From: Gemmatimonadota bacterium
Lineage (GTDB): Bacteria; Gemmatimonadota; Gemmatimonadetes; Longimicrobiales; Gaopeijiaceae
DNA: 54,408 nucleotides
Assembly (NCBI GenBank): GCA_022560615.1
Contig: JADFSR010000029.1
Coordinates: 1 to 54,408 of the forward strand
Direction of reading: 5' to 3'
Below the pieces are notes generated by a model. That model saw nothing but the letters and a program-made list of their open reading frames with translations, was not told where the DNA came from and made no database searches. The position numbers were made by a program, and so were the translations under genes. This document shows, one piece after another, positions 12,732 through 15,080 of this stretch. Position 1 is the first letter of the stretch; each line of letters begins with the position of its first letter.

Positions 12732-14306
12732 CTACCTCGCGAAATCGATCGCTCTCGTCTCGCGTACGACGACGACCTTGATCTGGCCGGGGTACTGCAA
12801 CTCGCTCTCGATCTTCCTGGCGACGGCCTCTGAGATCTGCGCCATTTCCCCGTCCGTCACCCGGGAGGGCTCGACCATGACACGCAACTCGCGACCCGCC
12901 TGGATCGCGAAGCAGCGCTCCACTCCCGGATGCTCCATTGCGAGCTCTTCGAGCTTCTCGAGGCGTTTCACATAGCCCTCGAACATCTCGCGACGAGCGC
13001 CCGGCCTCGATCCACTGATCGCGTCAGCGGCGGAGACCAGGAACGTCTCCGCGAAATGGTGCGGCTCTTCGTCGTGGTGCGCCTTGATCGCGTTCAGGAC
13101 GATGGCGCTCTCTTCGTGTTTCTTGCACAGCCGGTACCCGAGCTCCACGTGGGTGCCCTCGTGCTCATGCGTCATGCCCTTCCCGACGTCGTGCAATACG
13201 CCGGCGCGCTTCGTCTCTGAGACGTCGAGCCCCATTTCCGCCGCCATGTTGCCCGCGAGCAGCGCGACTTCCCTGGCATGCTGGAGCTGATTCTGACCGT
13301 ATGAGGTGCGGAAGCGGAGTCGACCGAGCGTCTTCACGATCTCTGGGTGAACGTTGTGGATCCCGAGCTCGTAGAGGACCTCCTCCGCGCCCTCGAGCAT
13401 CGTCCGCTCGACCTCCTTCTGGGCCTTCTCCACGGTCTCCTCGATACGACCAGGGTGAATGCGACCATCCTCGACCAGTTCAGTGAGGGCCATGCGGGCG
13501 ATTTCCCGCCGCACGGGGTCGAACGCCGACAGCACGACGGCCTCAGGTGTATCATCGATGATCACGTCGACGCCGGTCGCTTGCTCGAACGAGCGGATGT
13601 TGCGTCCTTCGCGACCGATGATGCGACCCTTCATTTCATCCGATGGGAGCTGAACGACGGAGACCGTGGTCCGTGCGGTCAGGTCGGCTGCCATTCGTTG
13701 GATCGACAGCGCTACGATCTTCCGAGCCTCGCGCTCGGCGTCGCCTTGCGCCTGCTCCTTGACCTCGCGCAGCATGTTGGATGCGTCTGCGCGAGCCTCG
13801 TCCTCGAGCGTCTCGATGAGCTCCTTCTTGGCCTCCTCGGCGCTCAGACCCGCGAGCTGCTCCAGCCGCGCACGGGCTGTGCCCTCGGCCTCTCGGGCAG
13901 CTGCGTCCCTCCGTGCGACCTCGGCATGGCGGTTGTCGAGCCCCGCGACGCGCTCGTCCAGCTCGGCCTCGCGGGCGTCGAGACGATCTACCTGACGGTC
14001 AAAGGCTACCGAGCGCTCCTCATTGCGGCGCTCTGCGCGCTCGACGTCCGCACGGCGCCGTGACTCTTCCTTCTCCCACGCCTCACGAAGGCGGAAGCCC
14101 TCCTCTCGCCCGGCGAGTTCGCCGGCTCTGAGCGCGGTGTCCGCATCGTCACTTGCCCGCTTCAGGATGCGGGAGGCCTCGTCCCTCGCCTCGGCTTTTT
14201 CCAACTCCCGGTGGGCCCGTTCACGGCTCCGCACGACGAAGAACGCAACGATACCACCTAGGACGAGGCCGACCGCCGCCGCCAGCATTAGCTGCGGGGT
14301 GACCAT
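12732..14306 (-). CDS. rny: Ribonuclease Y
   Basis: Membrane-anchored endoribonuclease that initiates mRNA decay. 524 aa from ATG 14306, chosen because GGAG lies 7 nt upstream; a GTG at 14327 would add seven residues. Order: one N-terminal membrane helix (MLAAAVGLVLGGIVAFFVV), a long Glu/Arg coiled coil to about residue 200, a KH domain with GRIIGREGRNIRSFEQATGVD, then the HD domain with HDVGKGMTHEHEGTH and KAHHDEEPH. Full length for the family. The inverted-repeat element 14435-14738 sits in its upstream region, between it and zapA. Confidence 0.96.
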   Translation of the reverse strand: MVTPQLMLAAAVGLVLGGIVAFFVVRSRERAHRELEKAEARDEASRILKRASDDADTALRAGELAGREEGFRLREAWEKEESRRRADVERAERRNEERSVAFDRQVDRLDAREAELDERVAGLDNRHAEVARRDAAAREAEGTARARLEQLAGLSAEEAKKELIETLEDEARADASNMLREVKEQAQGDAEREARKIVALSIQRMAADLTARTTVSVVQLPSDEMKGRIIGREGRNIRSFEQATGVDVIIDDTPEAVVLSAFDPVRREIARMALTELVEDGRIHPGRIEETVEKAQKEVERTMLEGAEEVLYELGIHNVHPEIVKTLGRLRFRTSYGQNQLQHAREVALLAGNMAAEMGLDVSETKRAGVLHDVGKGMTHEHEGTHVELGYRLCKKHEESAIVLNAIKAHHDEEPHHFAETFLVSAADAISGSRPGARREMFEGYVKRLEKLEELAMEHPGVERCFAIQAGRELRVMVEPSRVTDGEMAQISEAVARKIESELQYPGQIKVVVVRETRAIDFAR

Positions 14307-14434
14307 GTATTTACTCCAAATCGGCACCGTGAAGCGCCGAAGGTGAGCGATATGCGACCCTACGGGCTCATGTCAAGAACCGCAGAATCCGACGTGCATC
14401 GGGAAATAGGAGGCGGTGGACTCTCTCACGCAAG

Positions 14435-14738
14435 CTAGCAGCCCGTGGTAGAAGTACAGTGGGCCGCGTTACGGTGCCACGGCTCCAGATCCTAGGCGGT
14501 GCGACGACGCCATAGCCGTCGCTACGGCTAGGAGCTCCAACGACGGAGATGGGGCCGTGCCACCGTAACCCACGAACCGGTAGTATTGTCACACCTGGTG
14601 GCGGGCGCAGGGGGGTCGCGGCCCAATAGGTCGTCTCTCCTCCTCGCCGTAGAACAACTACGACTCGTCGTCCTTCCTACTCTTGAACTCGCGAGACCCC
14701 TGCGCGCGGCCCACTGTACTTCTACCACGGGCTGCTAG
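14435..14738. mobile_element. Non-coding 304-bp element with perfect 34-bp terminal inverted repeats (MITE-like)
   Basis: The arms 14435-14468 and 14705-14738 are exact reverse complements over 34 bp, each ending in CTAGCAGCCCG. The outermost CTAG may be a 4-bp target duplication, which would leave a 296-bp element. Two further internal hairpins exist. Arm 1 pairs 14469-14486 with 14551-14568 (two non-Watson-Crick positions) and contains TAGCCGT-CGCT-ACGGCTA. Arm 2 pairs 14606-14620 with 14690-14704 and contains CGTAG-AACAA-CTACG. RNA or single-stranded DNA from it would fold into a three-way, Y-shaped structure. No transposase or credible ORF is inside. MITE is the preferred reading; a structured non-coding RNA is the alternative. 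Confidence 0.65.
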
Positions 14739-14771: not shown

Positions 14772-15080
14772 TCAGTTGTTTTTGTCGCTCGCCGGCGCTT
14801 CCGCCTCGATCCGGCGGGTCAGATTCGTCGCCCGCGAGGCGACCTCCTTGCGAAGCTGCTCCAGTTCGTCGATCGCCTGGAAGCACTGGTCCGCGATCGA
14901 GAGCGCTGCCAAGATCGCCGCCTTGTGACCTTCGATGAGCCCCGCCTGCATGCGGATCTCATGGATGCGGTCGTCGACCAGTTTTGCGCACCGTTTCGTG
15001 TGCTCGGGCGCGACGTTCGCACGAATGGTGTGTTCTTCACCCGCGATGCGGACCGTGACCGACGCTTTCTCGGGACTCAT
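14772..15080 (-). CDS. zapA: Cell division protein ZapA
   Basis: Cytoplasmic FtsZ-ring stabiliser. 102 aa. The N-terminal beta-hairpin (VTVRIAGEEHTIRA) followed by a long helix (KLVDDRIHEIRM...ALSIADQCFQAIDELEQLRKEV) is the ZapA pattern. ATG 15080 follows GGAGGAG and overlaps the preceding coiled-coil gene's stop as ATGA (15077-15080). The order pheT-(coiled coil)-zapA-rny is widely conserved and supports the call. The non-coding element begins 33 bp after its stop. Confidence 0.9.
   Translation of the reverse strand: MSPEKASVTVRIAGEEHTIRANVAPEHTKRCAKLVDDRIHEIRMQAGLIEGHKAAILAALSIADQCFQAIDELEQLRKEVASRATNLTRRIEAEAPASDKNN

Follow-up and report, generated by a model that had tools for sequence, protein, structure and literature searches.

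The 304-bp, hairpin-rich block at 14435–14738 of the window (the whole stretch of DNA analysed, 54,408 nucleotides of a Gemmatimonadota genome) is a copy, with type A ends, of a repeat family, here called the Y family, which very probably consists of non-autonomous MITEs moved by DDE transposases of the IS5/IS1182 superfamily and whose core would be inherited separately from its ends. Judged by its sequence, the element would behave like a MITE: it is non-coding with terminal inverted repeats, occurs as dispersed copies with corresponding empty sites, shows a target duplication and has candidate partner ISs, and mobilisation is predicted. MITEs tend to be regarded as relics that depend on a single transposase; a core common to at least five transposase specificities would show a non-autonomous element escaping the loss of its partner. 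Neither a MITE core shared among several transposase specificities, nor a Gemmatimonadota MITE of the Y kind or the exchange of its caps, was found described in the open-licence literature.

The window copy and its repeat family

The window copy is closed by two arms of 34 nt each, 100% complementary, within which lie two hairpins with stems 84% complementary each; the positions of all parts are given in Table 1. Its MFE as RNA was −186 kcal/mol, against −126 ± 6 in dinucleotide shuffles (z −9.8, reached by 0/100 shuffles), folding with DNA parameters gave z −9.6, and both the RNA and the DNA folds predicted a three-way junction. The perfect terminal repeats, paired inner hairpins and three-way fold described in the first-pass annotation were thus borne out (z about −10), as were the lack of coding capacity, the ORFs inside 14435–14738 not being gene-like, and the position between zapA and rny, both of which were identified by their domains. 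Among public genome records, the seven that best match the host's rny all belong to Gemmatimonadota. No Rfam match to the window copy was obtained at either of two thresholds, the gathering threshold not being reached; 6S or another known RNA at zapA was rejected as a candidate on this basis and on that of the empty sites in relatives described below. On the minus strand at 14399–14434, the element directly abuts CTTGCG, with TATTTC approximately 20 bases further on. A similar block, CTTGCG followed by TATTCT, is present in the rny–zapA spacers of many relatives, and the block beside the window copy may be the rny promoter.

Table 1. Parts of the window copy and its flanking genes (positions in the window).
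Feature	Position	Strand	Basis
Y-shaped copy (probable MITE), end type A, both CTAG tips included	14435–14738	+	Arms, fold, repeat family, empty sites
Left CTAG, putative target duplication	14435–14438	.	Single YTAR at 4 sister-copy empty-site junctions; G001 here reads CGAA
Right CTAG, putative target duplication	14735–14738	.	As for left CTAG
Left terminal inverted repeat CAGCCCGTGGTAGAAGTACA, type A (outer cap, different in other copies)	14439–14458	+	Resembles C88 IS ends GAGCCCGTGGCAGAAA / GAGCCCGTGGTAATAA
Right terminal inverted repeat, CAGCCCGTGGTAGAAGTACA inverted	14715–14734	−	Complementarity to left repeat, end comparison
Outer stem, inner part, left arm (..GGGCCGCG)	14459–14468	+	Common to copies of most end types
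Outer stem, inner part, right arm	14705–14714	+	Arm complementarity, breakpoint comparison
Core hairpin 1, covarying stems, conserved CCAACGACGGAG inside	14468–14569	+	Alignment, covariance model R1
Junction strand	14570–14601	+	Most length-variable part; few bases only in several relatives
Core hairpin 2, related to hairpin 1, inverted orientation	14602–14708	+	Full-length matches on both strands, covariation, covariance model
34-nt arms	14435–14468 / 14705–14738		100% complementary
Inner hairpin stem 1	14468–14492 / 14545–14569		84% complementary
Inner hairpin stem 2	14602–14620 / 14690–14708		84% complementary
zapA, one flank	14772–15080	−	PF05164
rny, other flank	12732–14327	−	PF12072/HD/KH

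When the 304 bases were searched against the window's genome (105 contigs, 4.5 Mb in total), 82 matching stretches were returned, and these include no fewer than 34 distinct copies of full length (304–411 bp). Partial or miniature relatives of about 103, 189, 208 and 250 bp were also present, together with 36-bp hairpins consisting of nothing but the two ends (for example CTAGCAGCCCGTGGTGGAAGTACCACGGGCTGCCAG), such that size variants of the family range from 36 to about 410 bp. Core-less minimal hairpins of this kind, approximately 36 bp long and formed from two type A ends, were seen at L068:3932, L069:4602, L070:6747, L072:4147 and L077:4514.

Of 59 genomes covered by a first sweep, 20 contained Y matches, a count that takes in the window's genome itself. 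The covariance model built on hairpin 1 matched 39/298 Gemmatimonadota genomes (24/39 from the same family as the host), a count that strict search filters make a lower bound. No Y-element match was found in plasmid and phage collections. In each of seven genomes of a genus in another family (g82: G126, G142, G199, G211, G244, G252 and G318) the hairpin 1 model had a single weak hit, with E between about 1e-4 and 7e-4, which could be a single-copy relative or chance. One genome, G021, carries approximately 146 type B ends, and several of its 278-bp copies are almost identical to one another, the mark of a recent burst. The two core hairpins are mutually related in inverted orientation, the family profile matching members at full length on both strands, and adjacent inverted pairs were found by the hairpin 1 model in G005.

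Empty sites, end types and candidate transposases

The orthologous rny–zapA spacer of a relative in the same genus (G001) is without the element, and the window's copy was missing from this spacer in 24/25 relatives where zapA and rny could both be located. In G007 the spacer (L213) contains a Y element of its own, independent of the window's, which has type B ends, the other orientation and another position. The first-pass annotation had held that a single-copy element kept between zapA and rny in distant relatives would contradict a MITE; the opposite was seen, the element being multicopy and the site mostly empty. A further 13 Y copies had contiguous empty sites in G001, making 14 with the window's, and in 4/14 a single YTAR lay exactly at the junction (CTAG at L042 and L023, TTAG at L030, CTAA at L046). 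By our own estimate the chance of a YTAR at a junction is about 1.6% per site, so that fewer than one would be expected among 14. YTAR is the duplicated target motif of IS5 (PMC10359306). The 10/14 sites without a clean YTAR, the window's own among them, are attributed to divergence of the spacers. CTAG is present at both tips of the window copy and had been suggested at the outset to be a target duplication, a suggestion that the four sister sites uphold; at the window copy itself the diverged spacer gave no confirmation, G001 reading GCAAG-CGAA against GCAAG-CTAG in the filled copy.

Six end types, A to F, were distinguished in the outer 20–24 bp of Y copies, nearly always with the same type at both ends. 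From a search for DDE transposases in the window's genome and its relatives, with a scan for YTAR-anchored inverted repeats, ISs with ends resembling Y ends and with CTAG/YTAR flanks were recovered for types A to E; type F had no partner among the DDE elements searched in these genomes. For type A the match is an IS of 1464 bp on contig C88 of the window's genome, a single copy at the contig edge. The encoded protein (470 aa) carries PF05598 and PF01609 and scores 165 bits against IS1182, the NCBIfam model nearest to it, short of that model's cut-off; the ends of the IS, CTAG|GAGCCCGTGGCAGAAA and CTAG|GAGCCCGTGGTAATAA, agree with type A Y ends at 12–13 of 16 positions. The remaining IS5/IS1182-type candidate partners come from other genomes of the phylum, their presence in the same cell as the matching copies being presumed only: L364 (16/16 at one end) and L365 for type B, L321 (13/16 at one end) for type C, L315 (15/16 at one end; NCBIfam IS5, 324 bits) for type D, and L366 (15/16 at one end) for type E. 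Shuffled left ends of these ISs matched a Y type equally well in 0 to 0.09% of trials. In profile and BLAST searches with the whole element as query, the ISs were found by their ends only. From these matches we infer that Y copies are mobilised in trans by these transposases. The original proposal of a MITE mobilised in trans, made from the window copy, gains from the multicopy family, the 14 empty sites and an IS with similar ends in the same genome.

Proposed exchange between core and ends

The 84 distinct full-length members aligned over their whole length and constitute one homologous core family, within which copies nearly alike in the core can differ widely in their ends. L183 (type B) and L184 (type C), from G004, have cores 98% identical and ends 45% identical; the type A copies L001 and L002 of the window's genome share 95% core identity with L005 (type D) and 45–47% identity in the ends; and L008 (A) and L031 (D) are 93% identical in the core and 45% in the ends. 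On the core tree at least 23 changes of end type were counted, a rough figure given that the tree rests on 253 columns, that 28/81 inner branches are starred and that recombination is likely. Two copies have mixed ends (L034, A on the left and B on the right; L064, C on the left and B on the right), and in the pairs compared, such as A against D (L001/L002 and L005), the switch falls at a similar height of the stem on either arm.

In the mechanism we propose, DDE transposases of the IS5/IS1182 superfamily, supplied by ISs elsewhere in the cell, would bind terminal repeats of about 20–24 bp and move the element, insertion duplicating a 4-bp YTAR target, usually CTAG. The two-hairpin core would pass on independently of the ends, the same core carrying end sets A to F. 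Since mixed-end copies exist, we propose that copies trade end sets through recombination that affects a single arm in each event, the second arm then perhaps being matched by palindrome-templated correction or by a second conversion. Both the recombination that would join cores to ends and the reason for retention of the core are conjectured from these patterns, by which the core appears to persist by switching the enzymes that move it.

A variant within the MITE reading is that separate families, each served by a different transposase, had their cores made uniform, genome by genome, through ectopic recombination while the ends never moved, which we consider a substantial possibility, if somewhat short of an even chance. 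The B and C copies of G004 fall in one genome-specific core clade (100/100), as core conversion would produce, the mixed-end copies resemble single crossovers, and a breakpoint within the conserved base of the stem would leave no trace. Core conversion nevertheless still needs one homologous core for all end types from the start, and does not specifically predict, though it does not forbid, a same-level switch in both arms. The sequences would fit both routes to shared cores, end capture and core conversion between families, and do not separate them. More tentatively, and with a good deal of doubt, the Y core might be regarded as selfish in its own right, a module of structured DNA (or RNA) that survives individual transposases by changing caps, with both ends exchanged in coordination, aided by the palindromic fold, and the core retained for a putative activity of its own. 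With its core tree set against end type, its mixed-end intermediates and its sister-species empty sites, the Y family forms a natural data set for the joint change of transposon ends.

Pairing, rival explanations and related systems

Pairing was clearly preserved throughout the family. Among 30 diverse members, 96.3% of cells across 73 pairs held standard pairs and changes had occurred on both sides in 58/73 pairs; the observed pairing was reached by 0/500 shuffles, and sliding the partners lowered it to 37–43%. Preservation extended to the core helices as well as the ends, the test for covarying pairs being positive. From an RNA selected on one strand one would expect tolerance of GU but not of AC; no consistent excess of G-U over A-C on one strand was found in either the 30- or the 84-member set, GT/TG against AC/CA mispairs numbering 50:30 in the former and 220:279 in the latter. 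In the 30-member set, hairpin 1 taken by itself is skewed towards GT (41:8). Two-sided changes far outnumber GT intermediates, and this rarity, together with the balance of GT and AC mispairs, favours maintenance at the DNA level over an RNA gene. Template switching during replication can generate and repair perfect stems without selection (PMC8794818), and gene conversion could likewise preserve them. Given these two processes and the mispair balance, covariation is not read here as evidence of an RNA gene; strong covariation in a palindromic mobile element is, as a warning, not such evidence by itself. As to the initial hint that the folded form is itself selected, pairing is kept family-wide, but a consistent strand-specific RNA signature was absent, and template switching or gene conversion could maintain the pairing without selection.

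A structured RNA gene or cis-acting RNA, in which the Y fold is transcribed and useful to the cell and mobility is secondary, could draw on the strong covariation in core helices and ends, on conserved unpaired motifs and on retention of the core while transposase ends change. It is nonetheless unlikely in view of mispairs that consistently favour neither strand, the negative Rfam result, the absence of the element at orthologous sites and the occurrence of copies in both orientations relative to neighbouring genes, this last resting on a crude gene caller and too rough for a firm claim. Stem-loop-replacing transposition, as in IS1272 of the IS1182 family, could swap both ends in one step by replacing a hairpin with a new element; IS1272 does replace target inverted repeats (PMC5678879) and several transposases matching Y ends are IS1182-type, but at the best-resolved empty sites a 4-bp target is duplicated and no hairpin has gone missing, and Y copies retain their interior and vary on the outside, opposite to what IS1272 does, such that this route seems very improbable. 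Still less credible is a REP/REPIN-like element moved through single-stranded hairpins by a RAYT (Y1) transposase: although the family is palindromic and multicopy and includes the 36-bp minimal hairpins, the window's genome has no Y1_Tnp (PF01797), in a search whose E. coli control was positive, and YTAR junctions with IS5/IS1182-like ends fit a DDE mechanism. Hardly any credence can be given to the Y element as a deletion derivative of an IS110/IS1111-type element, an idea raised by contig C89, on which a Y copy is split in two around an IS110-type gene; Y sequence resumes on either side (CTACGGCTAGG / IS / GGAGCTTCAACG), from which the IS110-type element is concluded to be an insertion into hairpin 1, and relatives of this IS elsewhere lack Y flanks. 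An IS110-type parent was ruled out by the C89 junctions, the element's own ends being without Y sequence. The IS1111-type element itself occupies L034:1621–3549.

The probable MITE status of the Y family invites comparison with bacterial IS-derived MITEs such as QMITE1/2, Chunjie and Correia (PMC10969869), which are likewise short and non-coding, with terminal inverted repeats, target duplication, size gradients and a stable fold; QMITE2, a Coxiella MITE, is also reported to contain an IS1111-type IS110 element (PMC10969869), as the Y family serves as a target for one. Unlike these MITEs, the Y family combines one core with several transposase-matching end types, has a covarying three-way fold, is GC-rich and is spread across a bacterial family and beyond. 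With the IS5/IS1182 superfamily (DDE, PF05598+PF01609) it shares terminal repeats and a CTAG/YTAR target, but has no transposase gene, and no interior similarity was seen in the whole-element searches. TIMEs (PMC4133298) are also non-autonomous with mosaic relatives, although they derive from Tn3-family transposons and form composites, whereas Y elements vary in their ends around a retained core. REP/REPIN elements with RAYT (PMC3116915, PMC8266576) are similarly palindromic with many copies, but the window's genome has no RAYT, and Y copies have DDE-type ends and a target duplication. IS1272 (PMC5678879) resembles the family in its IS1182-type transposases and hairpins; it makes no target duplication and removes the target hairpin, whereas the 4-bp target is duplicated at the best-resolved Y sites.

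Other sequences were associated with Y copies in the window's genome. On contig C78 (L067:336–2270) a hipBA-like operon, encoding an HTH_3 protein and HipA, is bordered by a type A end on one side and a broken Y copy on the other; that a Y element carried hipBA there seems doubtful, the copy being broken and no intact composite seen. Optional hairpin modules of 26–29 bp (GCGACC...GGTGCCC), whose stems differ yet stay paired, occur at a few positions in the element, and 31/32 matches to the module among loci fetched from this genome lay in or beside Y copies. Such modules, with a stem-loop between GCGACC and GGTGCCC, were seen in L018, L023, L026, L027, L031, L032, L039, L040, L042, L046 and L070, among others.
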